In this document: one piece after another, positions 21,095-64,000 of the stretch | Position numbering within the stretch: position 1 is the stretch's first letter | Layout: every line of letters begins with the position of its first letter | NCBI GenBank assembly: GCA_032164245.1 | Contig: JAVMKO010000001.1 | Coordinates: 77,559,892 to 77,623,891, forward strand | Origin: Sternotherus odoratus | Lineage: Eukaryota > Chordata > Testudines > Kinosternidae | DNA length: 64,000 bases | Reading direction: 5' to 3' | Program-made: the position numbers and the translations under genes | The notes under the pieces: model-generated | The model's database searches: none | What the model was told of the DNA's origin: nothing | Seen by the model: the letters and a program-made list of their open reading frames with translations, nothing else

Positions 21095-21373
21095 CCTTGA
21101 CCAGCTGCCACCACGTTAGGCTGGGCGATCGTCCTCATGCCCTTAGTATTTCCCTTCGCGACTCCGAAGCGTGCCCCGACGTGCAGGTCTTGAAGCGGGG
21201 CCCGGTATCGGGAGCCCATGTCCAGGCTTTCGCTAGGGCAGGGGTGCCCTTGCGGGCTAATTGTCCCTCTGGAGCTGAAAATCAACACCGCGGCGGGGTG
21301 TGAACGGAGGTCCCCGTAGAAGGAGGAGATGAGGAACGGGCTGGCCGGGCACGCCATTTCCCTCTGCCCCTTC

Positions 21374-21377
21374 AAAA
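21374..21377 (-). terminator. Pol III terminator (TTTT) of tRNA-Asp copy 1
   Basis: Four T residues on the minus strand begin 10 nt after the tRNA 3' end. The same TTTT lies 13 to 10 bases below the lower coordinate of the other tRNA-Asp copies in the window. Confidence 0.8.
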
Positions 21378-21386
21378 GGGAGCGCT

Positions 21387-21458
21387 CTCCCCGTCGGGGA
21401 ATCGAACCCCGGTCTCCCGCGTGACAGGCGGGGATACTTGCCACTATACTAACGAGGA
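21387..21458 (-). tRNA. tRNA-Asp(GTC): tRNA-Asp (GTC), array copy 1
   Basis: This is a 72-nt gene with a full cloverleaf. The acceptor TCCTCGT pairs with ACGGGGA, with discriminator G. The anticodon arm is CCCGC-CTGTCAC-GCGGG with anticodon GTC, and the T arm is CGGGG-TTCGATT-CCCCG. The A box (TAGTATAGTGG) and B box (GGTTCGATTCC) are intact; no intron, CCA not encoded. It decodes GAC/GAU and is transcribed by RNA polymerase III. The D loop reads AGTGGCAA where most vertebrate genes have AGTGGTTA or AGTGGTGA. This sequence is the array consensus (26 of 34 copies). Confidence 0.97.
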
Positions 21459-22116
21459 AAGGGGCAGGGCCATGCACGCTCTGGGTCGCCGGGACACCAC
21501 CTATGGCCAGTTGACCCCACACCGCGGGTCCTAGCAGGCAACGACAAGGCTTGCTCTCTTCTCCTTCCTAAAGGCTTTGGTCGGCTGCAGCAACAGCCCT
21601 GGGAAACGCCCTCTCCCTCCTCACATGCGGTTGCCCAGCTGGCCCCCTTGGCGGGCTACACAGCTCCTCCCACGACACCTGCCTGGAACCTTGCCCTCAC
21701 CGACGGGCTGCTCGGCACCTTCTTCCTCTGACAACCGTTTCTTTCTACCCTTCCCCTTCCACACTTCACATGCTCCTCAAAGTCACAACATCGCAAACTC
21801 ACCCAAGCTCCCTTTGTCTTTAGAAGCCCCTCTTGAGGGCCGGGGCTTCTCAGGACCGCAGATCCGCCCCTTCAACGCGCAGTGGCCGGACGTTCCAAAC
21901 TCAGCCCTTTCCAGGATGGAATGCGCTGCTTTCTGACGTTGGCGCCCAGGAAAATTCCTGTTCCTCATCCCCCTTCCTCTTTTGCTCATGGACTTACCTG
22001 ATGGACGTGCCTTTACCAAGCCGAAGCTAGGCACCAGCTGCTGGCTCTCTTTGCAAATGGACGCAACCAGGCTGAGCCGCTGGGCGTGCGTCAGGAGATG
22101 CGCCACCCAAAAGCAA

Positions 22117-22188
22117 AGAGGTTACTCGGATTCAAAGGCAGCTTGCTGCGGCCACAGTGCAGACTACCGACCACTCTGCGATCACGGC
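22117..22188 (-). pseudogene. tRNA-His (GTG) relic, copy 1
   Basis: This 72-nt stretch follows vertebrate tRNA-His: 5' GCCGTGATCG, an A-box-like AGAGTGG, anticodon region CTGTGGCCGCAGCAA with GTG in the loop, and GAATCCGAGT. It is broken. The T stem (CTGCC against CCGAG) pairs only at its base, the 3' acceptor half (TAACCTC) no longer pairs with GCCGTGA, D-stem pairs are lost, and the anticodon stem has an A-C mismatch. A TTTT run survives a few bases downstream. This copy has G (CTGCC) where most copies have A (CTGAC) in the T stem. It lies 477 nt downstream of a tRNA-Asp gene on the same strand. Confidence 0.8.
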
Positions 22189-22665
22189 CGGCCGCCGGGT
22201 GACACGGCAGCTGAGTGGGAACTGCTCCGTTCTGCGCTCTCGGGGCGCTCACTAGGGCCACCGCTATTTCTCCAGTCTGCCCGTCACTGTCCCAGCTAAA
22301 ATCGTAACAAAAGGAAAAAAGGCAGGAGGCCAGCCTGCTGCCCGTCCGCTTTCCTCTCTTCCTCGCCCCTTGACCAGCTGCCACCACGTTAGGCTGGGCG
22401 ATCGTCCTCATGCCCTTGGCCAGAGTATTTCCCTTCGCGACTCCGAAGCGTGGCCCGACGTGCAGGTCTTGAAGCTGGGCCCGGTGTCGGGAGCCCATGT
22501 CCAGGCTTTCGCTAGGGCAGGGGTGCCCTTGCGGGCTAATTGTCCCTCTGGAGCTGAAAATCAACACCGCGGCGGGGTGTGAACGGAGGTCCCCGTAGAA
22601 GGAGGAGATGAGGAACGGGCTGGCCGGGCACGCCATTTCCCTCTGCCCCTTCAAAAGGGAGCGCT

Positions 22666-22737
22666 CTCCCCGTCGGGGAATCGAACCCCGGTCTCCCGCG
22701 TGACAGGCGGGGATACTTGCCACTATACTAACGAGGA
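22666..22737 (-). tRNA. tRNA-Asp(GTC): tRNA-Asp (GTC), array copy 2
   Basis: Consensus sequence. Its unit belongs to the 1280-bp class but keeps the 'tagcagg' marker of the 1279-bp class. Confidence 0.96.
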
Positions 22738-23396
22738 AAGGGGCAGGGCCGTGCACACTGTGGGTCGCCGGGACACCACCTATGGCCAGTTGACCCCCAC
22801 ACCGCGGGTCCTAGCAGGCAACGACAAGGCTTGCTCTCTTCTCCTTCCTAAAGGCTTTGGTCGGCTGCAGCAACAGCCCTGGGAAACGCCCTCTCCCTCC
22901 TCACATGCGGTTGCCCAGCTGGCCCCCTTGGCGGGCTACACAGCTCCTCCCACGACACCTGCCTGGAACCTTGCCCTCACCGACGGGCTGCTCGGCACCT
23001 TCTTCCTCTGACAACCGTTTCTTTCTACCCTTCCCCTTCCACACTTCACATGCTCCTCAAAGTCACAACATCGCAAACTCACCCAAGCTCCCTTTGTCTT
23101 TAGAAGCCCCTCTTGAGGGCCGGGGCTTCTCAGGACCGCAGATCCGCCCCTTCAACGCGCAGTGACCGGACGTTCCAAACTCAGCCCTTTCCAGGATGGA
23201 ATGCGCTGCTTTCTGACGTTGGCGCCCAGGAAAATTCCTGTTCCTCATCCCCCTTCCTCTTTTGCTCATGGACTTACCTGATGGACGTGCCTTTACCAAG
23301 CCGAAGCTAGGCACCAGCTGCTGGCTCTCTTTGCAAATGGACGCAACCAGGCTGAGCCGCTGGGCGTGCGTCAGGAGATGCGCCACCCAAAAGCAA

Positions 23397-23468
23397 AGAG
23401 GTTACTCGGATTCAAAGTCAGCTTGCTGCGGCCACAGTGCAGACTACCGACCACTCTGCGATCACGGC
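23397..23468 (-). pseudogene. tRNA-His relic, copy 2
   Basis: Common form of the relic (T-stem strand CTGAC), with all structural breaks of copy 1. Confidence 0.8.
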
Positions 23469-23945
23469 CGGCCGCCGGGTGACACGGCAGCTGAGTGGGA
23501 ACTGCTCCGTTCTGCGCTCTCGGGGCGCTCACTAGGGCCACCGCTATTTCTCCAGTCTGCCCGTCACTGTCCCAGCTAAAATCGTAACAAAAGGAAAAAA
23601 GGCAGGAGGCCAGCCTGCTGCCCGTCCGCTTTCCTCTCTTCCTCGCCCCTTGACCAGCTGCCACCACGTTAGGCTGGGCGATCGTCCTCATGCCCTTGGC
23701 CAGAGTATTTCCCTTCGCGACTCCGAAGCGTGCCCCGACGTGCAGGTCTTGAAGCTGGGCCCGGTGTCGGGAGCCCATGTCCAGGCTTTCGCTAGGGCAG
23801 GGGTGCCCTTGCGGGCTAATTGTCCCTCTGGAGCTGAAAATCAACACCGCGGCGGGGTGTGAACGGAGGTCCCCGTAGAAGGAGGAGATGAGGAACGGGC
23901 TGGCCGGGCACGCCATTTCCCTCTGCCCCTTCAAAAGGGAGCGCT

Positions 23946-24017
23946 CTCCCCGTCGGGGAATCGAACCCCGGTCTCCCGCGTGACAGGCGGGGATACTTGC
24001 CACTATACTAACGAGGA
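23946..24017 (-). tRNA. tRNA-Asp(GTC): tRNA-Asp (GTC), array copy 3
   Basis: Consensus sequence; first unit with the 'taggagg' marker. Confidence 0.96.
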
Positions 24018-24676
24018 AAGGGGCAGGGCCGTGCACACTGTGGGTCGCCGGGACACCACCTATGGCCAGTTGACCCCCACACCGCGGGTCCTAGGAGGCA
24101 ACGACAAGGCTTGCTCTCTTCTCCTTCCTAAAGGCTTTGGTCGGCTGCAGCAACAGCCCTGGGAAACGCCCTCTCCCTCCTCACATGCGGTTGCCCAGCT
24201 GGCCCCCTTGGCGGGCTACACAGCTCCTCCCACGACACCTGCCTGGAACCTTGCCCTCACCGACGGGCTGCTCGGCACCTTCTTCCTCTGACAACCGTTT
24301 CTTTCTACCCTTCCCCTTCCACACTTCACATGCTCCTCAAAGTCACAACATCGCAAACTCACCCAAGCTCCCTTTGTCTTTAGAAGCCCCTCTTGAGGGC
24401 CGGGGCTTCTCAGGACCGCAGATCCGCCCCTTCAACGCGCAGTGGCCGGACGTTCCAAACTCAGCCCTTTCCAGGATGGAATGCGCTGCTTTCTGACGTT
24501 GGCGCCCAGGAAAATTCCTGTTCCTCATCCCCCTTCCTCTTTTGCTCATGGACTTACCTGATGGACGTGCCTTTACCAAGCCGAAGCTAGGCACCAGCTG
24601 CTGGCTCTCTTTGCAAATGGACGCAACCAGGCTGAGCCGCTGGGCGTGCGTCAGGAGATGCGCCACCCAAAAGCAA

Positions 24677-24748
24677 AGAGGTTACTCGGATTCAAAGTCA
24701 GCTTGCTGCGGCCACAGTGCAGACTACCGACCACTCTGCGATCACGGC
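24677..24748 (-). pseudogene. tRNA-His relic, copy 3
   Basis: Common form. Confidence 0.78.
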
Positions 24749-25225
24749 CGGCCGCCGGGTGACACAGCAGCTGAGTGGGAACTGCTCCGTTCTGCGCTCT
24801 CGGGGCGCTCACTAGGGCCACCGCTATTTCTCCAGTCTGCCCGTCACTGTCCCAGCCAAAATCGTAACAAAAGGAAAAAAGGCAGGAGGCCAGCCTGCTG
24901 CCCGTCCGCTTTCCTCTCTTCCTCGCCCCTTGACCAGCTGCCACCACGTTAGGCTGGGCGATCGTCCTCATGCCCTTGGCCAGAGTATTTCCCTTCGCGA
25001 CTCCGAAGCGTGCCCCGACGTGCAGGTCTTGAAGCTGGGCCCGGTGTCGGGAGCCCATGTCCAGGCTTTCGCTAGGGCAGGGGTGCCCTTGCGGGCTAAT
25101 TGTCCCTCTGGAGCTGAAAATCAACACCGCGGCGGGGTGTGAACGGAGGTCCCCGTAGAAGGAGGAGATGAGGAACGGGCTGGCCGGGCACGCCATTTCC
25201 CTCTGCCCCTTCAAAAGGGAGCGCT

Positions 25226-25297
25226 CTCCCCGTCGGGGAATCGAACCCCGGTCTCCCGCGTGACAGGCGGGGATACTTGCCACTATACTAACGAGGA
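25226..25297 (-). tRNA. tRNA-Asp(GTC): tRNA-Asp (GTC), array copy 4
   Basis: Consensus sequence. Confidence 0.96.
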
Positions 25298-25956
25298 AAG
25301 GGGCAGGGCCGTGCACACTGTGGGTCGCCGGGACACCACCTATGGCCAGTTGACCCCCACACCGCGGGTCCTAGGAGGCAACGACAAGGCTTGCTCTCTT
25401 CTCCTTCCTAAAGGCTTTGGTCGGCTGCAGCAACAGCCCTGGGAAACGCCCTCTCCCTCCTCACATGCGGTTGCCCAGCTGGCCCCCTTGGCGGGCTACA
25501 CAGCTCCTCCCACGACACCTGCCTGGAACCTTGCCCTCACCGACGGGCTGCTCGGCACCTTCTTCCTCTGACAACCGTTTCTTTCTACCCTTCCCCTTCC
25601 ACACTTCACATGCTCCTCAAAGTCACAACATCGCAAACTCACCCAAGCTCCCTTTGTCTTTAGAAGCCCCTCTTGAGGGCCGGGGCTTCTCAGGACCGCA
25701 GATCCGCCCCTTCAACGCGCAGTGGCCGGACGTTCCAAACTCAGCCCTTTCCAGGATGGAATGCGCTGCTTTCTGACGTTGGCGCCCAGGAAAATTCCTG
25801 TTCCTCATCCCCCTTCCTCTTTTGCTCATGGACTTACCTGATGGACGTGCCTTTACCAAGCCAAAGCTAGGCACCAGCTGCTGGCTCTCTTTGCAAATGG
25901 ACGCAACCAGGCTGAGCCGCTGGGCGTGCGTCAGGAGATGCGCCACCCAAAAGCAA

Positions 25957-26028
25957 AGAGGTTACTCGGATTCAAAGTCAGCTTGCTGCGGCCACAGTGC
26001 AGACTACCGACCACTCTGCGATCACGGC
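25957..26028 (-). pseudogene. tRNA-His relic, copy 4
   Basis: Common form. Confidence 0.78.
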
Positions 26029-26505
26029 CGGCCGCCGGGTGACACGGCAGCTGAGTGGGAACTGCTCCGTTCTGCGCTCTCGGGGCGCTCACTAGGGCCA
26101 CCGCTATTTCTCCAGTCTGCCCGTCACTGTCCCAGCTAAAATCGTAACAAAAGGAAAAAAGGCAGGAGGCCAGCCTGCTGCCCGTCCGCTTTCCTCTCTT
26201 CCTCGCCCCTTGACCAGCTGCCACCACGTTAGGCTGGGCGATCGTCCTCATGCCCTTGGCCAGAGTATTTCCCTTCGCGACTCCGAAGCGTGCCCCGACG
26301 TGCAGGTCTTGAAGCTGGGCCCGGTGTCGGGAGCCCATGTCCAGGCTTTCGCTAGGGCAGGGGTGCCCTTGCGGGCTAATTGTCCCTCTGGAGCTGAAAA
26401 TCAACACCGCGGCGGGGTGTGAACGGAGGTCCCCGTAGAAGGAGGAGATGAGGAACGGGCTGGCCGGGCACGCCATTTCCCTCTGCCCCTTCAAAAGGGA
26501 GCGCT

Positions 26506-26577
26506 CTCCCCGTCGGGGAATCGAACCCCGGTCTCCCGCGTGACAGGCGGGGATACTTGCCACTATACTAACGAGGA
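26506..26577 (-). tRNA. tRNA-Asp(GTC): tRNA-Asp (GTC), array copy 5
   Basis: Consensus sequence. Confidence 0.96.
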
Positions 26578-27236
26578 AAGGGGCAGGGCCGTGCACACTG
26601 TGGGTCGCCGGGACACCACCTATGGCCAGTTGACCCCCACACCGCGGGTCCTAGGAGGCAACGACAAGGCTTGCTCTCTTCTCCTTCCTAAAGGCTTTGG
26701 TCGGCTGCAGCAACAGCCCTGGGAAACGCCCTCTCCCTCCTCACATGCGGTTGCCCAGCTGGCCCCCTTGGCGGGCTACACAGCTCCTCCCACGACACCT
26801 GCCTGGAACCTTGCCCTCACCGACGGGCTGCTCGGCACCTTCTTCCTCTGACAACCGTTTCTTTCTACCCTTCCCCTTCCACACTTCACATGCTCCTCAA
26901 AGTCACAACATCGCAAACTCACCCAAGCTCCCTTTGTCTTTAGAAGCCCCTCTTGAGGGCCGGGGCTTCTCAGGACCGCAGATCCGCCCCTTCAACGCGC
27001 AGTGGCCGGACGTTCCAAACTCAGCCCTTTCCAGGATGGAATGCGCTGCTTTCTGACGTTGGCGCCCAGGAAAATTCCTGTTCCTCATCCCCCTTCCTCT
27101 TTTGCTCATGGACTTACCTGATGGACGTGCCTTTACCAAGCCGAAGCTAGGCACCAGCTGCTGGCTCTCTTTGCAAATGGACGCAACCAGGCTGAGCCGC
27201 TGGGCGTGCGTCAGGAGATGCGCCACCCAAAAGCAA

Positions 27237-27308
27237 AGAGGTTACTCGGATTCAAAGTCAGCTTGCTGCGGCCACAGTGCAGACTACCGACCACTCTGCG
27301 ATCACGGC
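27237..27308 (-). pseudogene. tRNA-His relic, copy 5
   Basis: Common form. Confidence 0.78.
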
Positions 27309-27785
27309 CGGCCGCCGGGTGACACGGCAGCTGAGTGGGAACTGCTCCGTTCTGCGCTCTCGGGGCGCTCACTAGGGCCACCGCTATTTCTCCAGTCTGC
27401 CCGTCACTGTCCCAGCTAAAATCGTAACAAAAGGAAAAAAGGCAGGAGGCCAGCCTGCTGCCCGTCCGCTTTCCTCTCTTCCTCGCCCCTTGACCAGCTG
27501 CCACCACGTTAGGCTGGGCGATCGTCCTCATGCCCTTGGCCAGAGTATTTCCCTTCGCGACTCCGAAGCGTGCCCCGACGTGCAGTTCTTGAAGCTGGGC
27601 CCGGTGTCGGGAGCCCATGTCCAGGCTTTCGCTAGGGCAGGGGTGCCCTTGCGGGCTAATTGTCCCTCTGGAGCTGAAAATCAACACCGCGGCGGGGTGT
27701 GAACGGAGGTCCCCGTAGAAGGAGGAGATGAGGAACGGGCTGGCCGGGCACGCCATTTCCCTCTGCCCCTTCAAAAGGGAGCGCT

Positions 27786-27857
27786 CTCCCCGTCGGGGAA
27801 TCGAACCCCGGTCTCCCGCGTGACAGGCGGGGATACTTGCCACTATACTAACGAGGA
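27786..27857 (-). tRNA. tRNA-Asp(GTC): tRNA-Asp (GTC), array copy 6
   Basis: Consensus sequence. Confidence 0.96.
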
Positions 27858-28516
27858 AAGGGGCAGGGCCGTGCACACTGTGGGTCGCCGGGACACCACC
27901 TATGGCCAGTTGACCCCCACACCGCGGGTCCTAGGAGGCAACGACAAGGCTTGCTCTCTTCTCCTTCCTAAAGGCTTTGGTCGGCTGCAGCAACAGCCCT
28001 GGGAAACGCCCTCTCCCTCCTCACATGCGGTTGCCCAGCTGGCCCCCTTGGCGGGCTACACAGCTCCTCCCACGACACCTGCCTGGAACCTTGCCCTCAC
28101 CGACGGGCTGCTCGGCACCTTCTTCCTCTGACAACCGTTTCTTTCTACCCTTCCCCTTCCACACTTCACATGCTCCTCAAAGTCACAACATCGCAAACTC
28201 ACCCAAGCTCCCTTTGTCTTTAGAAGCCCCTCTTGAGGGCCGGGGCTTCTCAGGACCGCAGATCCGCCCCTTCAACGCGCAGTGGCCGGACGTTCCAAAC
28301 TCAGCCCTTTCCAGGATGGAATGCGCTGCTTTCTGACGTTGGCGCCCAGGAAAATTCCTGTTCCTCATCCCCCTTCCTCTTTTGCTCATGGACTTACCTG
28401 ATGGACGTGCCTTTACCAAGCCAAAGCTAGGCACCAGCTGCTGGCTCTCTTTGCAAATGGACGCAACCAGGCTGAGCCGCTGGGCGTGCGTCAGGAGATG
28501 CGCCACCCAAAAGCAA

Positions 28517-28588
28517 AGAGGTTACTCGGATTCAAAGTCAGCTTGCTGCGGCCACAGTGCAGACTACCGACCACTCTGCGATCACGGC
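28517..28588 (-). pseudogene. tRNA-His relic, copy 6
   Basis: Common form. Confidence 0.78.
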
Positions 28589-29065
28589 CGGCCGCCGGGT
28601 GACACGGCAGCTGAGTGGGAACTGCTCCGTTCTGCGCTCTCGGGGCGCTCACTAGGGCCACCGCTATTTCTCCAGTCTGCCCGTCACTGTCCCAGCCAAA
28701 ATCGTAACAAAAGGAAAAAAGGCAGGAGGCCAGCCTGCTGCCCGTCCGCTTTCCTCTCTTCCTCGCCCCTTGACCAGCTGCCACCACGTTAGGCTGGGCG
28801 ATCGTCCTCATGCCCTTGGCCAGAGTATTTCCCTTCGCGACTCCGAAGCGTGCCCCGACGTGCAGGTCTTGAAGCTGGGCCCGGTGTCGGGAGCCCATGT
28901 CCAGGCTTTCGCTAGGGCAGGGGTGCCCTTGCGGGCTAATTGTCCCTCTGGAGCTGAAAATCAACACCGCGGCGGGGTGTGAACGGAGGTCCCCGTAGAA
29001 GGAGGAGATGAGGAACGGGCTGGCCGGGCACGCCATTTCCCTCTGCCCCTTCAAAAGGGACCGCT

Positions 29066-29137
29066 CTCCCCGTCGGGGAATCGAACCCCAGTCTCCCGCG
29101 TGACAGGCGGGGATACTTGCCACTATACTAACGAGGA
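29066..29137 (-). tRNA. tRNA-Asp(GTC): tRNA-Asp (GTC), array copy 7, C49T
   Basis: One change: C49 to T at the base of the T stem, turning a C-G pair into a T-G wobble with G65. Probably still foldable. Confidence 0.93.
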
Positions 29138-29796
29138 AAGGGGCAGGGCCGTGCACACTGTGGGTCGCCGGGACACCACCTATGGCCAGTTGACCCCCAC
29201 ACCGCGGGTCCTAGGAGGCAACGACAAGGCTTGCTCTCTTCTCCTTCCTAAAGGCTTTGGTCGGCTGCAGCAACAGCCCTGGGAAACGCCCTCTCCCTCC
29301 TCACATGCGGTTGCCCAGCTGGCCCCCTTGGCGGGCTACACAGCTCCTCCCACGACACCTGCCTGGAACCTTGCCCTCACCGACGGGCTGCTCGGCACCT
29401 TCTTCCTCTGACAACCGTTTCTTTCTACCCTTCCCCTTCCACACTTCACATGCTCCTCAAAGTCACAACATCGCAAACTCACCCAAGCTCCCTTTGTCTT
29501 TAGAAGCCCCTCTTGAGGGCCGGGGCTTCTCAGGACCGCAGATCCGCCCCTTCAACGCGCAGTGGCCGGACGTTCCAAACTCAGCCCTTTCCAGGATGGA
29601 ATGCGCTGCTTTCTGACGTTGGCGCCCAGGAAAATTCCTGTTCCTCATCCCCCTTCCTCTTTTGCTCATGGACTTACCTGATGGACGTGCCTTTACCAAG
29701 CCAAAGCTAGGCACCAGCTGCTGGCTCTCTTTGCAAATGGACACAACCAGGCTGAGCCGCTGGGCGTGCGTCAGGAGATGCGCCACCCAAAAGCAA

Positions 29797-29868
29797 AGAG
29801 GTTACTCGGATTCAAAGTCAGCTTGCTGCGGCCACAGTGCAGACTACCGACCACTCTGCGATCACGGC
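29797..29868 (-). pseudogene. tRNA-His relic, copy 7
   Basis: Common form. Confidence 0.78.
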
Positions 29869-30345
29869 CGGCCGCCGGGTGACACGGCAGCTGAGTGGGA
29901 ACTGCTCCGTTCTGCGCTCTCGGGGCGCTCACTAGGGCCACCGCTATTTCTCCAGTCTGCCCGTCACTGTCCCAGCTAAAATCGTAACAAAAGGAAAAAA
30001 GGCAGGAGGCCAGCCTGCTGCCCGTCCGCTTTCCTCTCTTCCTCGCCCCTTGACCAGCTGCCACCACGTTAGGCTGGGCGATCGTCCTCATGCCCTTGGC
30101 CAGAGTATTTCCCTTCGCGACTCCGAAGCGTGCCCCGACGTGCAGGTCTTGAAGCTGGGCCCGGTGTCGGGAGCCCATGTCCAGGCTTTCGCTAGGGCAG
30201 GGGTGCCCTTGCGGGCTAATTGTCCCTCTGGAGCTGAAAATCAACACCGCGGCGGGGTGTGAACGGAGGTCCCCGTAGAAGGAGGAGATGAGGAACGGGC
30301 TGGCCGGGCACGCCATTTCCCTCTGCCCCTTCAAAAGGGAGCGCT

Positions 30346-30417
30346 CTCCCCGTCGGGGAATCGAACCCCGGTCTCCCGCGTGACAGGCGGGGATACTTGC
30401 CACTATACTAACGAGGA
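30346..30417 (-). tRNA. tRNA-Asp(GTC): tRNA-Asp (GTC), array copy 8
   Basis: Consensus sequence. Confidence 0.96.
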
Positions 30418-31076
30418 AAGGGGCAGGGCCGTGCACACTGTGGGTCGCCGGGACACCACCTATGGCCAGTTGACCCCCACACCGCGGGTCCTAGGAGGCA
30501 ACGACAAGGCTTGCTCTCTTCTCCTTCCTAAAGGCTTTGGTCGGCTGCAGCAACAGCCCTGGGAAACGCCCTCTCCCTCCTCACATGCGGTTGCCCAGCT
30601 GGCCCCCTTGGCGGGCTACACAGCTCCTCCCACGACACCTGCCTGGAACCTTGCCCTCACCGACGGGCTGCTCGGCACCTTCTTCCTCTGACAACCGTTT
30701 CTTTCTACCCTTCCCCTTCCACACTTCACATGCTCCTCAAAGTCACAACATCGCAAACTCACCCAAGCTCCCTTTGTCTTTAGAAGCCCCTCTTGAGGGC
30801 CGGGGCTTCTCAGGACCGCAGATCCGCCCCTTCAACGCGCAGTGGCCGGACGTTCCAAACTCAGCCCTTTCCAGGATGGAATGCGCTGCTTTCTGACGTT
30901 GGCGCCCAGGAAAATTCCTGTTCCTCATCCCCCTTCCTCTTTTGCTCATGGACTTACCTGATGGACGTGCCTTTACCAAGCCGAAGCTAGGCACCAGCTG
31001 CTGGCTCTCTTTGCAAATGGACGCAACCAGGCTGAGCCGCTGGGCGTGCGTCAGGAGATGCGCCACCCAAAAGCAA

Positions 31077-31148
31077 AGAGGTTACTCGGATTCAAAGTCA
31101 GCTTGCTGCGGCCACAGTGCAGACTACCGACCACTCTGCGATCACGGC
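31077..31148 (-). pseudogene. tRNA-His relic, copy 8
   Basis: Common form. Confidence 0.78.
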
Positions 31149-31625
31149 CGGCCGCCGGGTGACACGGCAGCTGAGTGGGAACTGCTCCGTTCTGCGCTCT
31201 CGGGGCGCTCACTAGGGCCACCGCTATTTCTCCAGTCTGCCCGTCACTGTCCCAGCTAAAATCGTAACAAAAGGAAAAAAGGCAGGAGGCCAGCCTGCTG
31301 CCCGTCCGCTTTCCTCTCTTCCTCGCCCCTTGACCAGCTGCCACCACGTTAGGCTGGGCGATCGTCCTCATGCCCTTGGCCAGAGTATTTCCCTTCGCGA
31401 CTCCGAAGCGTGCCCCGACGTGCAGGTCTTGAAGCTGGGCCCGGTGTCGGGAGCCCATGTCCAGGCTTTCGCTAGGGCAGGGGTGCCCTTGCGGGCTAAT
31501 TGTCCCTCTGGAGCTGAAAATCAACACCGCGGCGGGGTGTGAACGGAGGTCCCCGTAGAAGGAGGAGATGAGGAACGGGCTGGCCGGGCACGCCATTTCC
31601 CTCTGCCCCTTCAAAAGGGAGCGCT

Positions 31626-31697
31626 CTCCCCGTCGGGGAATCGAACCCCGGTCTCCCGCGTGACAGGCGGGGATACTTGCCACTATACTAACGAGGA
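31626..31697 (-). tRNA. tRNA-Asp(GTC): tRNA-Asp (GTC), array copy 9
   Basis: Consensus sequence. Confidence 0.96.
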
Positions 31698-53382: not shown

Positions 53383-53454
53383 CTCCCCGTCGGGGAATCG
53401 AACCCCGGTCTCCCGCGTGACAGGCGGGGATACTTGCCACTATACTAACGAGGA
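53383..53454 (-). tRNA. tRNA-Asp(GTC): tRNA-Asp (GTC), array copy 26
   Basis: Consensus sequence. Confidence 0.96.
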
Positions 53455-54113
53455 AAGGGGCAGGGCCGTGCACACTGTGGGTCGCCGGGACACCACCTAT
53501 GGCCAGTTGACCCCCACACCGCGGGTCCTAGGAGGCAACGACAAGGCTTGCTCTCTTCTCCTTCCTAAAGGCTTTGGTCGGCTGCAGCAACAGCCCTGGG
53601 AAATGCCCTCTCCCTCCTCACATGCGGTTGCCCAGCTGGCCCCCTTGGCGGGCTACACAGCTCCTCCCACGACACCTGCCTGGAACCTTGCCCTCACCGA
53701 CGGGCTGCTCGGCACCTTCTTCCTCTGACAACCGTTTCTTTCTACCCTTCCCCTTCCACACTTCACATGCTCCTCAAAGTCACAACATCGCAAACTCACC
53801 CAAGCTCCCTTTGTCTTTAGAAGCCCCTCTTGAGGGCCGGGGCTTCTCAGGACCGCAGATCCGCCCCTTCAACGCGCAGTGGCCGGACGTTCCAAACTCA
53901 GCCCTTTCCAGGATGGAATGCGCTGCTTTCTGACATTGGCGCCCAGGAAAATTCCTGTTCCTCATCCCCCTTCCTCTTTTGCTCATGGACTTACCTGATG
54001 GACGTGCCTTTACCAAGCCGAAGCTAGGCACCAGCTGCTGGCTCTCTTTGCAAATGGACGCAACCAGGCTGAGCCGCTGGGCGTGCGTCAGGAGATGCGC
54101 CACCCAAAAGCAA

Positions 54114-54185
54114 AGAGGTTACTCGGATTCAAAGTCAGCTTGCTGCGGCCACAGTGCAGACTACCGACCACTCTGTGATCACGGC
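54114..54185 (-). pseudogene. tRNA-His relic, copy 26
   Basis: One further change near the D stem (plus strand ctctgtgatc instead of ctctgcgatc). Confidence 0.78.
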
Positions 54186-54662
54186 CGGCCGCCGGGTGAC
54201 ACGGCAGCTGAGTGGGAACTGCTCCGTTCTGCGCTCTCGGGGCGCTCACTAGGGCCACCGCTATTTCTCCAGTCTGCCCGTCACTGTCCCAGCTAAAATC
54301 GTAACAAAAGGAAAAAAGGCAGGAGGCCAGCCTGCTGCCCGTCCGCTTTCCTCTCTTCCTCGCCCCTTGACCAGCTGCCACCACGTTAGGCTGGGCGATC
54401 GTCCTCATGCCCTTGGCCAGAGTATTTCCCTTCGCGACTCCGAAGCGTGCCCCGACGTGCAGGTCTTGAAGCTGGGCCCGGTGTCGGGAGCCCATGTCCA
54501 GGCTTTCGCTAGGGCAGGGGTGCCCTTGCGGGCTAATTGTCCCTCTGGAGCTGAAAATCAACACCGCGGCGGGGTGTGAACGGAGGTCCCCGTAGAAGGA
54601 GGAGATGAGGAACGGGCTGGCCGGGCACGCCATTTCCCTCTGCCCCTTCAAAAGGGACCGCT

Positions 54663-54734
54663 CTCCCCGTCGGGGAATCGAACCCCGGTCTCCCGCGTGA
54701 CAGGCGGGGATACTTGCCACTATACTAACGAGGA
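54663..54734 (-). tRNA. tRNA-Asp(GTC): tRNA-Asp (GTC), array copy 27
   Basis: Consensus sequence; 'gggaccgc' 3' flank. Confidence 0.96.
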
Positions 54735-55393
54735 AAGGGGCAGGGCCGTGCACACTGTGGGTCGCCGGGACACCACCTATGGCCAGTTGACCCCCACACC
54801 GCGGGTCCTAGGAGGCAACGACAAGGCTTGCTCTCTTCTCCTTCCTAAAGGCTTTGGTCGGCTGCAGCAACAGCCCTGGGAAACGCCCTCTCCCTCCTCA
54901 CATGCGGTTGCCCAGCTGGCCCCCTTGGCGGGCTACACAGCTCCTCCCACGACACCTGCCTGGAACCTTGCCCTCACCGACGGGCTGCTCGGCACCTTCT
55001 TCCTCTGACAACCGTTTCTTTCTACCCTTCCCCTTCCACACTTCACATGCTCCTCAAAGTCACAACATCGCAAACTCACCCAAGCTCCCTTTGTCTTTAG
55101 AAGCCCCTCTTGAGGGCCGGGGCTTCTCAGGACCGCAGATCCGCCCCTTCAACGCGCAGTGGCCGGACGTTCCAAACTCAGCCCTTTCCAGGATGGAATG
55201 CGCTGCTTTCTGACGTTGGCGCCCAGGAAAATTCCTGTTCCTCATCCCCCTTCCTCTTTTGCTCATGGACTTACCTGATGGACGTGCCTTTACCAAGCCG
55301 AAGCTAGGCACCAGCTGCTGGCTCTCTTTGCAAATGGACGCAACCAGGCTGAGCCGCTGGGCGTGCGTCAGGAGATGCGCCACCCAAAAGCAA

Positions 55394-55465
55394 AGAGGTT
55401 ACTCGGATTCAAAGTCAGCTTGCTGCGGCCACAGTGCAGACTACCGACCACTCTGCGATCACGGC
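55394..55465 (-). pseudogene. tRNA-His relic, copy 27
   Basis: Common form. Confidence 0.78.
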
Positions 55466-55942
55466 CGGCCGCCGGGTGACACGGCAGCTGAGTGGGAACT
55501 GCTCCGTTCTGCGCTCTCGGGGCGCTCACTAGGGCCACCGCTATTTCTCCAGTCTGCCCGTCACTGTCCCAGCTAAAATCGTAACAAAAGGAAAAAAGGC
55601 AGGAGGCCAGCCTGCTGCCCGTCCGCTTTCCTCTCTTCCTCGCCCCTTGACCAGCTGCCACCACGTTAGGCTGGGCGATCGTCCTCATGCCCTTGGCCAG
55701 AGTATTTCCCTTCGCGACTCCGAAGCGTGCCCCGACGTGCAGGTCTTGAAGCTGGGCCCGGTGTCGGGAGCCCATGTCCAGGCTTTCACTAGGGCAGGGG
55801 TGCCCTTGCGGGCTAATTGTCCCTCTGGAGCTGAAAATCAACACCGCGGCGGGGTGTGAACGGAGGTCCCCGTAGAAGGAGGAGATGAGGAACGGGCTGG
55901 CCGGGCACGCCATTTCCCTCTGCCCCTTCAAAAGGGAGCGCT

Positions 55943-56014
55943 CTCCCCGTCGGGGAATCGAACCCCGGTCTCCCGCGTGACAGGCGGGGATATTTGCCAC
56001 TATACTAACGAGGA
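55943..56014 (-). tRNA. tRNA-Asp(GTC): tRNA-Asp (GTC), array copy 28, G22A
   Basis: One change: G22 to A in the D stem, which converts a T13-G22 wobble into a T-A pair, so it is structurally neutral or stabilising. Confidence 0.93.
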
Positions 56015-56672
56015 AAGGGGCAGGGCCGTGCACACTGTGGGTCACCGGGACACCACCTATGGCCAGTTGACCCCACACCGCGGGTCCTAGCAGGCAACGA
56101 CAAGGCTTGCTCTCTTCTCCTTCCTAAAGGCTTTGGTCGGCTGCAGCAACAGCCCTGGGAAACGCCCTCTCCCTCCTCACATGCGGTTGCCCAGCTGGCT
56201 CCCTTGGCGGGCTACACAGCTCCTCCCACGACACCTGCCTGGAACCTTGCCCTCACCGACGGGCTGCTCGGCACCTTCTTCCTCTGACAACCGTTTCTTT
56301 CTACCCTTCCCCTTCCACACTTCACATACTCCTCAAAGTCACAACATCGCAAACTCACCCAAGCTCCCTTTGTCTTTAGAAGCCCCTCTTGAGGGCCGGG
56401 GCTTCTCAGGACCGCAGATCCGCCCCTTCAACGCGCAGTGGCCGGACGTTCCAAACTCAGCCCTTTCCAGGATGGAATGCGCTGCTTTCTGACGTTGGCG
56501 CCCAGGAAAATTCCTGTTCCTCATCCCCCTTCCTCTTTTGCTCATGGACTTACCTGATGGACGTGCCTTTACCAAGCCGAAGCTAGGCACCAGCTGCTGG
56601 CTCTCTTTGCAAATGGACGCAATCAGGCTGAGCCGCTGGGCGTGCGTCAGGAGATGCGCCACCCAAAAGCAA

Positions 56673-56744
56673 AGAGGTTACTCGGATTCAAAGTCAGCTT
56701 GCTGCGGCCACAGTGCAGACTACCGACCACTCTGCGATCACGGC
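56673..56744 (-). pseudogene. tRNA-His relic, copy 28
   Basis: Common form. Confidence 0.78.
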
Positions 56745-57221
56745 CGGCCGCCGGGTGACACGGCAGCTGAGTGGGAACTGCTCTGTTCTGCGCTCTCGGG
56801 GCGCTCACTAGGGCCACCGCTATTTCTCCAGTCTGCCCGTCACTGTCCCAGCTAAAATCGTAACAAAAGGAAAAAAGGCAGGAGGCCAGCCTGCTGCCCG
56901 TCCGCTTTCCTCTCTTCCTCGCCCCTTGACCAGCTGCCACCACGTTAGGCTGGGCGATCGTCCTCATGCCCTTGGCCAGAGTATTTCCCTTCGCGACTCC
57001 GAAGCGTGGCCCGACGTGCAGGTCTTGAAGCTGGGCCCGGTGTCGGGAGCCCATGTCCAGGCTTTCGCTAGGGCAGGGGTGCCCTTGCGGGCTAATTGTC
57101 CCTCTGGAGCTGAAAATCAACACCGCGGCGGGGTGTGAACGGAGGTCCCCGTAGAAGGAGGAGATGAGGAACGGGCTGGCCGGGCACGCCATTTCCCTCT
57201 GCCCCTTCAAAAGGGAGCGCT

Positions 57222-57293
57222 CTCCCCGTCAGGGAATCGAACCCCGGTCTCCCGCGTGACAGGCGGGGATACTTGCCACTATACTAACGAGGA
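57222..57293 (-). tRNA. tRNA-Asp(GTC): tRNA-Asp (GTC), array copy 29, C64T
   Basis: One change: C64 to T in the T stem, giving a G50-T64 wobble. Confidence 0.92.
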
Positions 57294-57951
57294 AAGGGGC
57301 AGGGCCGTGCACACTGTGGGTCGCCGGGACACCACCTATGGCCAGTTGACCCCACACCGCGGGTCCTAGCAGGCAACGACAAGGCTTGCTCTCTTCTCCT
57401 TCCTAAAGGCTTTGGTCGGCTGCAGCAACAGCCCTGGGAAACGCCCTCTCCCTCCTCACATGCGGTTGCCCAGCTGGCACCCTTGGCGGGCTACACAGCT
57501 CCTCCCACGACACCTGCCTGGAACCTTGCCCTCACCGACGGGCTGCTCGGCACCTTCTTCCTCTGACAATCGTTTCTTTCTACCCTTCCCCTTCCACACT
57601 TCACATGCTCCTCAAAGTCACAACATCGCAAACTCACCCAAGCTCCCTTTGTCTTTAGAAGCCCCTCTTGAGGGCCGGGGCTTCTCAGGACCGCAGATCC
57701 GCCCCTTCAACGCGCAGTGGCCGGACGTTCCAAACTCAGCCCTTTCCAGGATGGAATGCGCTGCTTTCTGACGTTGGCGCCCAGGAAAATTCCTGTTCCT
57801 CATCCCCCTTCCTCTTTTGCTCATGGACTTACCTGATGGACGTGCCTTTACTAAGCCGAAGCTAGGCACCAGCTGCTGGCTCTCTTTGCAAATGGACGCA
57901 ACCAGGCTGAGCCGCTGGGCGTGCGTCAGGAGATGCGCCACCCAAAAGCAA

Positions 57952-58023
57952 AGAGGTTACTCGGATTCAAAGTCAGCTTGCTGCGGCCACAGTGCAGACT
58001 ACCGACCACTCTGCGATCACGGC
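57952..58023 (-). pseudogene. tRNA-His relic, copy 29
   Basis: Common form. Confidence 0.78.
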
Positions 58024-58500
58024 CGGCCGCCGGGTGACACGGCAGCTGAGTGGGAACTGCTCCGTTCTGCGCTCTCGGGGCGCTCACTAGGGCCACCGCT
58101 ATTTCTCCAGTCTGCCCGTCACTGTCACAGCTAAAATCGTAACAAAAGGAAAAAAGGCAGGAGGCCAGCCTGCTGCCCGTCCGCTTTCCTCTCTTCCTCG
58201 CCCCTTGACCAGCTGCCACCACGTTAGGCTGGGCGATGGTCCTCATGCCCTTGGCCAGAGTATTTCCCTTCGCGACTCCGAAGCGTGCCCCGACGTGCAG
58301 GTCTTGAAGCTGGGCCCGGTGTCGGGAGCCCATGTCCAGGCTTTCGCTAGGGCAGGGGTGCCCTTGCGGGCTAATTGTCCCTCTGGAGCTGAAAATCAAC
58401 ACCGCGGCGGGGTGTGAACGGAGGTCCCCGTAGAAGGAGGAGATGAGGAACGGGCTGGCCGGGCACGCCATTTCCCTCTGCCCCTTCAAAAGGGAGCGCT

Positions 58501-58572
58501 CTCCCCGTCGGGGAATCGAACCCCGGTCTCCCACGTGACAGGCAGGGATACTTGCCACTATACTAACAAGGA
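58501..58572 (-). tRNA. tRNA-Asp(GTC): tRNA-Asp (GTC), array copy 30, three changes
   Basis: The most diverged copy: C5T (acceptor), C29T and C40T (anticodon stem), each turning a G-C pair into a G-T wobble. All three are C-to-T, and C5 and C40 lie in CpG-like contexts. The anticodon GTC is kept. With two adjacent wobbles in the anticodon stem this copy may be weak or dying. Confidence 0.82.
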
Positions 58573-59230
58573 AAGGGGCAGGGCCGTGCACACTGTGGAT
58601 CGCCGGGACACCACCTATGGCCAGTTGACCCCACACCGCGGGTCCTAGCAGGCAACGACAAGGCTTGCTCTCTTCTCCTTCCTAAAGGCTTTGGTCGGCT
58701 GCAGCAACAGCCCTGGGAAACGCCCTCTCCCTCCTCACATGCGGTTGCCCAGCTGGCACCCTTGGCGGGCTACACAGCTCCTCCCACGACACCTGCCTGG
58801 AACCTTGCCCTCACCGACGGGCTGCTCGGCACCTTCTTCCTCTGACAATCGTTTCTTTCTACCCTTCCCCTTCCACACTTCACATGCTCCTCAAAGTCAC
58901 AACATCGCAAACTCACCCAAGCTCCCTTTGTCTTTAGAAGCCCCTCTTGAGGGCCGGGGCTTCTCAGGACCGCAGATCCGCCCCTTCAACGCGCAGTGGC
59001 CGGACGTTCCAAACTCAGCCCTTTCCAGGATGGAATGCGCTGCTTTCTGACGTTGGCGCCCAGGAAAATTCCTGTTCCTCATCCCCCTTCCTCTTTTGCT
59101 CATGGACTTACCTGATGGACGTGCCTTTACCAAGCCGAAGCTAGGCACCAGCTGCTGGCTCTCTTTGCAAATGGACGCAACCAGGCTGAGCCGCTGGGCG
59201 TGCGTCAGGAGATGCGCCACCCAAAAGCAA

Positions 59231-59302
59231 AAAGGTTACTCGGATTCAAAGTCAGCTTGCTGCGGCCACAGTGCAGACTACCGACCACTCTGCGATCACG
59301 GC
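59231..59302 (-). pseudogene. tRNA-His relic, copy 30
   Basis: Carries the 3'-end change of copy 25. Confidence 0.78.
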
Positions 59303-59770
59303 CGGCCGCCGGGTGACACGGCAGCTGAGTGGGAACTGCTCCGTTCTGCGCTCTCGGGGCACTCACTAGGGCCACCGCTATTTCTCCAGTCTGCCCGTCA
59401 CTGTCCCAGCTAAAATCGTAACAAAAGGAAAAAAGGCAGGAGGCCAGCCTGCTGCCCGTCCGCTTTCCTCTCTTCCTCGCCCCTTGACCAGCTGCCACCA
59501 CGTTAGGCTGGGCGATCGTCCTCATGCCCTTGGCCAAAGTATTTCCCTTCGCGACTCCGAAGACGTGCAGGTCTTGAAGCTGGGCCCGGTGTCGGGAGCC
59601 CATGTCCAGGCTTTCACTAGGGCAGGGGTGCCCTTGCGGGCTAATTGTCCCTCTGGAGCTGAAAATCAACACCGCGGCGGGGTGTGAACGGAGGTCCCCG
59701 TAGAAGGAGGAGATGAGGAACGGGCTGGCCGGGCACGCCATTTCCCTCTGCCCCTTCAAAAGGGAGCGCT

Positions 59771-59842
59771 CTCCCCGTCGGGGAATCGAACCCCGGTCTC
59801 CCGCGTGACAGGCGGGGATACTTGCCACTATACTAACGAGGA
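59771..59842 (-). tRNA. tRNA-Asp(GTC): tRNA-Asp (GTC), array copy 31
   Basis: Consensus sequence, although its unit has lost 9 bp about 205 bp downstream of the tRNA. Confidence 0.96.
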
Positions 59843-60501
59843 AAGGGGCAGGGCCGTGCACACTGTGGGTCGCCGGGACACCACCTATGGCCAGTTGACC
59901 CCCACACCGCGGGTCCTAGGAGGCAATGACAAGGCTTGCTCTCTTCTCCTTCCTAAAGGCTTTGGTCGGCTGCAGCAACAGCCCTGGGAAACGCCCTCTC
60001 CCTCCTCACATGCGGTTGCCCAGCTGGCCCCCTTGGCGGGCTACACAGCTCCTCCCACGACACCTGCCTGGAACCTTGCCCTCACCGACGGGCTGCTCGG
60101 CACCTTCTTCCTCTGACAACCGTTTCTTTCTACCCTTCCCCTTCCACACTTCACATGCTCCTCAAAGTCACAACATCGCAAACTCACCCAAGCTCCCTTT
60201 GTCTTTAGAAGCCCCTCTTGAGGGCCGGGGCTTCTCAGGACCGCAGATCCGCCCCTTCAACGCGCAGTGGCCGGACGTTCCAAACTCAGCCCTTTCCAGG
60301 ATGGAATGCGCTGCTTTCTGACGTTGGCGCCCAGGAAAATTCCTGTTCCTCATCCCCCTTCCTCTTTTGCTCATGGACTTACCTGATGGACGTGCCTTTA
60401 CCAAGCCGAAGCTAGGCACCAGCTGCTGGCTCTCTTTGCAAATGGACGCAACCAGGCTGAGCCGCTGGGCGTGCGTCAGGAGATGCGCCACCCAAAAGCA
60501 A

Positions 60502-60573
60502 AGAGGTTACTCGGATTCAAAGGCAGCTTGCTGCGGCCACAGTGCAGACTACCGACCACTCTGCGATCACGGC
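60502..60573 (-). pseudogene. tRNA-His relic, copy 31
   Basis: Has the CTGCC T-stem strand, otherwise seen only in copy 1 at the array edge. Confidence 0.78.
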
Positions 60574-61050
60574 CGGCCGCCGGGTGACACGGCAGCTGAG
60601 TGGGAACTGCTCCGTTCTGCGCTCTCGGGGCGCTCACTAGGGCCACCGCTATTTCTCCAGTCTGCCCGTCACTGTCACAGCTAAAATCGTAACAAAAGGA
60701 AAAAAGGCAGGAGGCCAGCCTGCTGCCGGTCCGCTTTCCTCTCTTCCTCGCCCCTTGACCAGCTGCCACCACGTTAGGCTGGGCGATCGTCCTCATGCCC
60801 TTGGTCAGAGTATTTCCCTTCGCGACTCCGAAGCGTGCCCCGACGTGCAGGTCTTGAAGCTGGGCCCGGTGTCGGGAGCCCATGTCCAGGCTTTCGCTAG
60901 GGCAGGGGTGCCCTTGCGGGCTAATTGTCCCTCTGGAGCTGAAAATCAACACCGCGGCGGGGTGTGAACGGAGGTCCCCGTAGAAGGAGGAGATGAGGAA
61001 CGGGCTGGCCGGGCACGCCATTTCCCTCTGCCCCTTCAAAAGGGAGCGCT

Positions 61051-61122
61051 CTCCCCGTCGGGGAATCGAACCCCGGTCTCCCGCGTGACAGGCGGGGATA
61101 CTTGCCACTATACTAACGAGGA
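61051..61122 (-). tRNA. tRNA-Asp(GTC): tRNA-Asp (GTC), array copy 32
   Basis: Consensus sequence. Confidence 0.96.
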
Positions 61123-61764
61123 AAGGGGCAGGGCCGTGCACAGTGTGGGTCGCCGGGACACCACCTATGGCCAGTTGACCCCACACCGCGGGTCCTAGCA
61201 GGCAACGACAAGGCTTGCTCTCTTCTCCTTCCTAAAGGCTTTGGTCGGCTGCAGCAACAGCCCTGGGAAACGCCCTCTCCCTCCTCACATGCGGTTGCCC
61301 AGCTGGCCCCCTTGGCGGGCTACACAGCTCCTCCCACGACACCTGCCTGGAACCTTGCCCTCACCGACGGGCTGCTCGGCACCTTCTTCCTCTGACAACC
61401 GTTTCTTTCTACCCTTCCCCTTCCACACTTCACATGCTCCTCAAAGTCACAACATCGCAAACTCACCCAAGCTCCCTTTGTCTTTAGAAGCCCCTCTTGA
61501 GGGCCGCAGATCCGCCCCTTCAACGCGCAGTGGCCGGACGTTCCAAACTCAGCCCTTTCCAGGATGGAATGCGCTGCTTTCTGACGTTGGCGCCCAGGAA
61601 AATTCCTGTTCCTCATCCCCCTTCCTCTTTTGCTCATGGACTTACCTGATGGACGTGCCTTTACCAAGCCGAAGCTAGGCACCAGCTGCTGGCTCTCTTT
61701 GCAAATGGACGCAACCAGGCTGAGCCGCTGGGCGTGCGTCAGGAGATGCGCCACCCAAAAGCAA

Positions 61765-61836
61765 AGAGGTTACTCGGATTCAAAGTCAGCTTGCTGCGGC
61801 CACAGTGCAGACTACCGACCACTCTGCGATCACGGC
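61765..61836 (-). pseudogene. tRNA-His relic, copy 32
   Basis: Common form, in the shortened unit. Confidence 0.78.
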
Positions 61837-62299
61837 CGGCCGCCGGGTGATACGGCAGCTGAGTGGGAACTGCTCCGTTCTGCGCTCTCGGGGCGCTCAC
61901 TAGGGCCACCGCTATTTCTCCAGTCTGCCCGTCACTGTCACAGCTAAAATCGTAACAAAAGGAAAAAAGGCAGGAGGCCAGCCTGCTGCCCGTCCGCTTT
62001 CCTCTCTTCCTCGCCCCTTGACCAGCTGCCACCACGTTAGGCTGGGCGATCGTCCTCATGCCCTTGGCCAGAGTATTTCCCTTCGCGACTCCGAAGCGTG
62101 GCCCGACGTGCAGGTCTTGAAGCTGGGCCCATGTCCAGGCTTTCGCTAGGGCAGGGGTGCCCTTGCGGGCTAATTGTCCCTCTGGAGCTGAAAATCAACA
62201 CCGCGGCGGGGTGTGAACGGAGGTCCCCGTAGAAGGAGGAGATGAGGAACGGGCTGGCCGGGCACGCCATTTCCCTCTGCCCCTTCAAAAGGGAGCGCT

Positions 62300-62371
62300 C
62301 TCCCCGTCGGGGAATCGAACCCCGGTCTCCCGCGTGACAGGCGGGGATACTTGCCACTATACTAACGAGGA
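62300..62371 (-). tRNA. tRNA-Asp(GTC): tRNA-Asp (GTC), array copy 33
   Basis: Consensus sequence, in the shortened 1249-bp interval. Confidence 0.96.
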
Positions 62372-63029
62372 AAGGGGCAGGGCTGTGCACACTGTGGGTC
62401 GCCGGGACACCAACTATGGCCAATTGACCCCACACCGCGGGTCCTAGCAGGCAACGACAAGGCTTGCTCTCTTCTCCTTCCTAAAGGCTTTGGTCGGCTG
62501 CAGCAACAGCCCTGGGAAACGCCCTCTCCCTCCTCACATGCGGTTGCCCAGCTGGCCCCCTTGGCGGGCTACACAGCTCCTCCCACGACACCTGCCTGGA
62601 ACCTTGCCCTCACCGACGGGCTGCTCGGCACCTTCTTCCTCTGACAACCGTTTCTTTCTACCCTTCCCCTTCCACACTTCACATACTCCTCAAAGTCACA
62701 ACATCGCAAACTCACCCAAGCTCCCTTTGTCTTTAGAAGCCCCTCTTGAGGGCCGGGGCTTCTCAGGACCGCAGATCCGCCCCTTCAACGCGCAGTGGCC
62801 GGACGTTCCAAACTCAGCCCTTTCCAGGATGGAATGCGCTGCTTTCTGACGTTGGCGCCCAGGAAAATTCCTGTTCCTCATCCCCCTTCCTCTTTTGCTC
62901 ATGGACTTACCTGATGGACGTGCCTTTACCAAGCCGAAGCTAGGCACCAGCTGCTGGCTCTCTTTGCAAATGGACGCAACCAGGCTGAGCCGCTGGGCGT
63001 GCGTCAGGAGATGCGCCACCCAAAAGCAA

Positions 63030-63101
63030 AGAGGTTACTCGGATTCAAAGTCAGCTTGCTGCGGCCACAGTGCAGACTACCGACCACTCTGCGATCACGG
63101 C
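63030..63101 (-). pseudogene. tRNA-His relic, copy 33
   Basis: Common form; the last copy in the window. Confidence 0.78.
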
Positions 63102-63578
63102 CGGCCGCCGGGTGACACGGCAGCTGAGTGGGAACTGCTCCGTTCTGCGCTCTCGGGGCGCTCACTAGGGCCACCGCTATTTCTCCAGTCTGCCCGTCAC
63201 TGTCACAGCTAAAATCGTAACAAAAGGAAAAAAGGCAGGAGGCCAGCCTGCTGCCCGTCCGCTTTCCTCTCTTCCTCGCCCCTTGACCAGCTGCCACCAC
63301 GTTAGGCTGGGCGATCGTCCTCATGCCCTTGGCCAGAGTATTTCCCTTCGCGACTCCGAAGCGTGCCCCGACGTGCAGGTCTTGAAGCTGGGCCCGGTGT
63401 CGGGAGCCCATGTCCAGGCTTTCGCTAGGGCAGGGGTGCCCTTGCGGGCTAATTGTCCCTCTGGAGCTGAAAATCAACACCGCGGCGGGGTGTGAACGGA
63501 GGTCCCCGTAGAAGGAGGAGATGAAGAACGGGCTGGCCGGGCACGCCATTTCCCTCTGCCCCTTCAAAAGGGACCGCT

Positions 63579-63650
63579 CTCCCCGTCGGGGAATCGAACC
63601 CCGGTCTCCCGCGTGACAGGCGGGGATACTTGCCACTATACTAACGAGGA
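63579..63650 (-). tRNA. tRNA-Asp(GTC): tRNA-Asp (GTC), array copy 34
   Basis: Consensus sequence; last copy before the window ends, with unit sequence continuing to 64000. Confidence 0.96.
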
Positions 63651-64000
63651 AAGGGGCAGGGCCGTGCACACTGTGGGTCGCCGGGACACCACCTATGGCC
63701 AGTTGACCCCACACCGCGGGTCCTAGCAGGCAACGACAAGGCTTGCTCTCTTCTCCTTCCTAAAGGCTTTGGTCGGCTGCAGCAACAGCCCTGGGAAACG
63801 CCCTCTCCCTCCTCACATGCGGTTGCCCAGCTGGCCCCCTTGGCGGGCTACACAGCTCCTCCCACGACACCTGCCTGGAACCTTGCCCTCACCGACGGGC
63901 TGCTCGGCACCTTCTTCCTCTGACAACCGTTTCTTTCTACCCTTCCCCTTCCACACTTCACATGCTCCTCAAAGTCACAACATCGCAAACTCACCCAAGC

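Follow-up and report, generated by a model that had tools for sequence, protein, structure and literature searches.

Are the genes of a long tRNA array kept alike by selection for their product, or only by the recombination that keeps tandem repeats uniform? The question is raised by a 64,000-nucleotide stretch of the genome of the turtle Sternotherus odoratus (the window throughout; C1:77559892-77623891, C1 being a 306.6-Mb contig in an assembly of 1.76 Gb and 218 contigs), in which a tandem array of tRNA-Asp(GTC) genes runs to the right-hand edge and beyond. Our best reading of the locus as a whole, to which we give a probability of roughly 0.6, is that the array is a macrosatellite of tRNA-gene DNA (tDNA) that arose from a unit carrying both tRNA-Asp and tRNA-His, has been kept uniform by unequal exchange and contains a tRNA-Asp gene that is under selection and probably transcribed. 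All results come from the sequence of this one assembly, and the genome searches covered tRNA-Asp and tRNA-His.

21095..64000, minus strand: tandemly arrayed tRNA-Asp(GTC) genes with a unit of about 1280 bp; 34 of them lie in the window and 43 in the whole assembly, where the array extends to C1:77635696.

Both ARAGORN and Rfam RF00005 detect 34 tRNA genes, every one on the minus strand of the window, the first at 21386-21459 and the last at 63578-63651, and ARAGORN assigns all 34 to tRNA-Asp(GTC). Over 72 nt, 26 of the 34 are identical, and the remaining eight carry one to three substitutions each, none of them in the anticodon. The window contains 33 complete units of 1249-1280 bp, whose mean pairwise identity is 99.4%. 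The original prediction of a very large, homogeneous array of such 1.28-kb units, with no anticodon lost and running past the window edge, is thus borne out: nine further genes lie beyond the window, the truncated last unit stops at C1:77635696, and the whole array holds 43 tRNA-Asp genes in 54,711 bp, 33 of them identical. There is no N in the window or anywhere in the array, and the 42 complete units have a mean pairwise ungapped identity of 99.50%. Because 37 of these 42 are distinct, the array is, by this count, not one unit multiplied by the assembler. An open reading frame of 239 aa spanning the unit has no Pfam match, and we rejected a coding role for it; other RNA genes in the unit were rejected as well, since only tRNA reaches the Rfam gathering level in the window and the weak matches in the one unit examined fall far below it.

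The history of the array becomes clearer from a second gene in the unit, a dead tRNA-His, and from its relatives on another contig, C3.

31077..31148, minus strand: example of the tRNA-His pseudogene, at unit positions 732-803; 28 exact copies in the window.
C3:97318897-97390206, plus strand: block of Asp+His units, 36 pattern matches.
C3:97537230-97621665, minus strand: block of Asp+His units, 42 pattern matches.

In C1, the pseudogene is identical in 35 of the 42 units, with 4 of its 72 sites variable, and mismatches the tRNA-His at the corresponding position in C3 at 15 of 71 aligned sites. ARAGORN makes no call for it in the window, and in the one unit scanned there is no Rfam tRNA match at E up to 5; on folding, it lacks a cloverleaf, while a C3 tRNA-His retains its acceptor and T stems. 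The C3 blocks, found through a genome search for tRNA-Asp variants and sampled in fetched stretches (L033, L035, L038-L041), consist of units of mostly 2022 bp in which tRNA-Asp and tRNA-His lie on the same strand. All 78 matches of the pattern search fall on C3, in two blocks about 147 kb apart and in opposite orientation; we did not keep a palindrome as their description, as the fetched borders have unit sequence in common and no clear flank beyond. One additional tRNA-Asp, with four differences, closes the plus block on its right (L039:4173); as the fetched stretch ends in unit sequence or very close to it, this block may extend further. The fetched stretches hold 19 tRNA pairs, with the majority form in 12 of the 19 tRNA-Asp and 7 of the 19 tRNA-His genes and the B box of tRNA-His unchanged in 15. 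Each sampled 2.0-kb unit also contains a long terminal repeat (LTR)-like element that, in the unit measured, ends 42 bp before tRNA-Asp. Most tRNA-Asp genes of C3 have the D loop GGCGCGT and a C in place of the A21 usual in tRNAs; with Rfam, their majority sequence scores 52.2 bits and the C1 gene 56.9.

C1 and C3 units are homologous, aligning over several stretches, and tRNA-Asp and tRNA-His were most likely both present in the unit from which they descend. The original prediction had described a single-isoacceptor array; this stands insofar as tRNA-Asp is the only live gene in C1, but the unit also holds the dead tRNA-His and has Asp+His counterparts on C3, and by this comparison the array is of a single isoacceptor only because its tRNA-His died. 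The C1 array would then be one of three macrosatellite blocks from a common Asp+His unit, the one on which tRNA-His decayed. The dead gene, together with the live tRNA-Asp, probably spread through the C1 units by unequal crossing over, gene conversion or both, because whole units are homogeneous and scattered units have variants in common.

Comparing one majority C1 unit with one C3 unit tells apart two tRNA genes with a shared amplification. In this comparison, where the spacer alignment is partly fragmentary, mismatches number 2/72 in tRNA-Asp, 15/71 in tRNA-His and 102/532 at the other aligned positions, taken as spacer; tRNA-Asp differs from the spacer (p=1.7e-4, or p=9e-5 to 3e-4 once poorly aligned spacer is left out), whereas tRNA-His does not (p=0.75). 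The contrast points to selection on tRNA-Asp, because this gene is nearly unchanged between C1 and C3 while tRNA-His and spacer have changed by about 20%; being near-unchanged over that divergence, it has most likely been maintained as a working gene. Homogeneity within the array says nothing about function, because gene and spacer were homogenised together, and we rejected within-array identity as proof of gene function, the spacer being equally uniform.

30346..30417, minus strand: example tRNA-Asp gene with the majority sequence (33/43), with A box, B box, anticodon loop CTGTCAC and terminal G.
30333..30345, minus strand: 3' trailer of that gene with a T4 terminator of RNA polymerase III (Pol III); T4 is present in 43/43 trailers.

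The gene itself has what a functional cytosolic tRNA-Asp gene should have: a cloverleaf, a GTC anticodon, A and B boxes and a T4 terminator. The A box and the anticodon loop are unchanged in all 43 copies and the B box in 42, a T4 run follows in every trailer, and all 34 genes of the window score 47.2-58.1 bits with Rfam; on folding, three tRNA stems appear in the centroid but not in the lowest-energy structure. With its own type-2 Pol III promoter and T4 terminator, each copy is probably transcribed singly, at least in part of the array, and the C1 copies would then add tRNA-Asp to the pool. A perfect 9-bp inverted repeat surrounds the gene (unit positions 73-81 and 1258-1266), with CTGCCCCTT upstream and AAGGGGCAG directly after the terminator, as in the flanks of 30346-30417.

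The distribution of variation around the genes is a further sign of use. Across the 42 C1 units, variable sites number 8/72 in the gene, 14/100 in the 100 bp upstream, 2/40 in the last 40 bp and 48/1068 in the rest. Matched for base and CpG context, the 100 bp upstream of tRNA-Asp have 14 variable sites where 5.8 are expected (p=0.0005), and the 100 bp downstream have 8 against 6.8 (p=0.37). On C3, where we counted 12 of 15 extracted units and excluded three of odd length, the sequence upstream of tRNA-Asp is again enriched, with 8/41 variable sites against 66/1671 (p=2.5e-4); there is no excess in tRNA-Asp itself (4/72, p=0.53), and there is one in tRNA-His (8/72, p=0.0096) and in the spacer between the two genes (18/162, p=2.3e-4). 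Transcription-linked rises in mutation are described for the flanks of tRNA genes (PMC8113476), and the upstream excess on both contigs resembles such transcription-associated mutagenesis; we count it for use. We also count for use the composition of the C1 array, with a GC content of 0.608 and an observed-to-expected (o/e) CpG ratio of 0.70 against 0.30 in window positions 1-16000. The ratio of CpG to non-CpG variation is lower in the tDNA part of the C3 unit than in its LTR-like part; as per-CpG rates are alike, we did not use this as a sign of hypomethylation.

How much tRNA such arrays might supply depends on what else the genome holds, and a search for variants found few tRNA-Asp genes outside them.

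C1:71041410, C15:18404425 and C15:18408046: dispersed tRNA-Asp genes with the D loop GGTAAGT, from the variant search.
C6:20694677 (L032:4659-4748): dispersed tRNA-Asp gene with the D loop GGCAAGT and three further changes, from the variant search.

In all, 122 of the 126 tRNA-Asp genes detected by a search that more divergent genes would escape lie in arrays (43 + 37 + 42). Two tRNA-His patterns, of 29 and 32 bases and allowing at most one mismatch, give 63 and 64 matches in an assembly that may be incomplete, all of them in the two C3 blocks; both patterns matching there only, the supply of tRNA-His may therefore depend on these blocks. If tRNA-His occurs nowhere else, silence is excluded for these blocks at any rate. 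We would advance tentatively, as something short of an even chance, the wider picture in which a single Asp+His unit expanded into three macrosatellite blocks, including two that face opposite ways on the same chromosome, in which these blocks hold nearly all tRNA-Asp and practically all tRNA-His genes, and in which C1 turned into a dedicated tRNA-Asp array through the uniform loss of tRNA-His. If true, the genome would depend for two of its tRNAs on arrays with copy numbers that recombination can alter. If the arrays are used, they would amount to a natural experiment on how tRNAs are supplied, with descendants of one ancestral unit that have two live genes on C3 and one live and one dead gene on C1. 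The D loops differ by source, GGCAAGT in the C1 array, mostly GGCGCGT on C3 and GGTAAGT at three dispersed genes, and would let tRNA sequencing distinguish the sources; whether large tDNA arrays are working, stage-specific or silent is thereby directly testable.

The array might instead be a silent macrosatellite, grown and homogenised by unequal exchange without any selection for the tRNA, its copies mostly or entirely methylated and not transcribed. We consider this unlikely, but it deserves attention, as several observations weigh on its side and against selection and use. Within the C1 array, the gene is as variable as the spacer, with 8 variable sites against 5.2 expected after base and CpG matching (p=0.13), and identity of the genes inside the array is, on this count, no support for function. 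(In a first count of 33 units, the gene had seemed clearly more variable than the spacer; with 42 units and matching, this weakened to the value just given, while the excess in the 5' flank stayed.) CpG transitions have occurred at 29/164 sites in C1 against 20/616 other C/G sites, a 5.4-fold excess that extends into the tRNA-Asp gene itself (5/16 against 2/29) and makes it likely that the array is methylated in the germline, in part or as a whole. There is a precedent: zebrafish tRNA clusters are described as almost completely methylated at early embryonic stages and as having copy numbers that do not predict tRNA level (PMC11574265). Gene conversion confined to tRNA-Asp could, moreover, mimic selection. 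A silent array, however, does not readily explain why tRNA-Asp, unlike the spacer and tRNA-His, was retained between C1 and C3, why promoter and terminator are intact or why the CpG o/e ratio is high. In another alternative, supply is stage-specific, with the array serving oocytes or early embryos and the dispersed genes the soma. The D loop GGCAAGT in the array against GGTAAGT at three dispersed genes would fit such a division, and a maternal role of the tRNA genes on zebrafish chromosome 4 has been proposed, though not shown (PMC11075544); we hold this stage-specific supply to be improbable.

Two further alternatives concern the surroundings and the assembly of the array. From left to right, the window has a protein gene, a stray fragment of the array unit, an LTR-like repeat and the array.

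3630..6278, minus strand: two stretches of a protein gene, presumably CCDC134, that match Pfam PF15002 (ERK-JNK_inhib), in two of the seven frames scanned.
19812..19970, no strand assigned: diverged array-unit fragment, 159 bp, 93.8%, outside the array on its left.
About 19971..21094, plus strand: LTR-like repeat between fragment and array, its LTR nature judged from the sequence ends without a repeat library.

Next to the PF15002 gene, the array could serve mainly as a chromatin boundary or barrier and only secondarily as a source of tRNA; barrier activity and CTCF binding are reported for the variable number tandem repeat (VNTR) of tRNA genes in human and mouse (PMC4041453). For the structural or insulator role that the original prediction had allowed for, there is no positive evidence here: the C1 unit has no match to either of two CTCF core consensuses, and we regard this explanation as very improbable. 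Least credible of all is that the assembler inflated the number of units. Eight identical unit pairs among the 42 could be taken that way, but units at the right end are more diverged (3-11 substitutions from the majority unit in units 28-42, compared with 0-4 in units 2-27), most units are distinct, the array has no N, and non-array flanks lie on the same 306-Mb contig.

Judged by its units, the array belongs to a known type of system, the tDNA tandem repeats or tRNA VNTRs, among which its small unit, its His partner and the loss of tRNA-His on C1 set it apart. The Xenopus tDNA repeat has a 3.18-kb unit with several different tRNA genes, and is not known to include Asp and His; like ours, it is vertebrate tDNA arranged head to tail, and it differs in its longer unit and its several kinds of tRNA. 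The closest described case is the human tRNA VNTR at 1q23.3, for which PMC4041453 gives a unit of 7.3 kb that holds five tRNA genes belonging to four kinds, 9-43 units per allele, about 98% unit identity, a GC- and CpG-rich composition, flanking LTRs, CTCF binding and a mouse counterpart. The likenesses are several: head-to-tail units on the kilobase scale with tRNA-Asp among their genes (43 genes and units of 1249-1280 bp on C1), unit identity of at least about 98% including the spacer (99.50% among the 42 C1 units), a GC-rich, CpG-island-like unit, and LTR elements at the flanks, which on C1 are LTR-like by their sequence ends and lie at the left border and several kilobases to the right. 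Unlike the human VNTR, the C1 array has a 1.28-kb unit with one live tRNA-Asp and a dead tRNA-His, both genes being live on C3; it has sister Asp+His arrays in the same genome; and where the human repeat binds CTCF, the C1 unit matches neither core consensus, with a by-eye fit of 11/13 bases in a block shared with C3. According to the same authors, tRNA genes in homogeneous tandem repeats are uncommon in organisms other than Entamoeba, whose tRNA genes are nearly all organised in arrays and have spacers containing short tandem repeats (PMC2652664); homogenised tandem units of tRNA genes are common to both systems, and arraying in the turtle is known for Asp and His, the two examined. Zebrafish chromosome 4, described as heterochromatic with 5227 tRNA genes (PMC11574265, PMC11075544), likewise has very many tRNA genes in one place and shares the CpG methylation suspected here, but in the turtle there is one defined array with a single live gene. 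Nematostella and teleosts have large clusters, of at least fifty tRNA genes, according to a survey that joined genes within 1000 nt (PMC2888827), a limit because of which a 1.28-kb unit would escape it. A literature search of openly licensed PMC papers listed no report of a nuclear tDNA array from a turtle or other reptile.

Some smaller observations concern repeats and single genes. The family of the LTR-like repeat at the left border recurs in L013 and L014, several kilobases to the right of the array (83%), and is the same as that inside each sampled C3 unit. About 3.5 kb to the right of the array, at L012:7142-9655 on the minus strand, lie reading frames of a retrotransposon, probably DIRS-like, that carry a reverse transcriptase domain and an N-terminal domain like that of phage integrases. 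A 31-bp stretch downstream of the tRNA-His pseudogene (window 22029-22059 and 32 more exact copies) is exact in C1 and C3 units and holds the by-eye fit of 11/13 bases to a CTCF core, which may be chance; as about 0.15 such exact runs are expected at 81% identity by our own estimate, the block was not used as evidence. The homology of the lone C6 tRNA-Asp to the array unit ends about 10 bp past either end of the gene, and it is possibly a copy of a pre-tRNA; we did not adopt retrocopying as its origin, the homology being confined to 80-90 bp and no tail or target duplication being evident by eye. The two dispersed tRNA-Asp genes on C15 are adjoined by tRNA-Ala(TGC) genes (L034:3889-3961 and 8513-8585).

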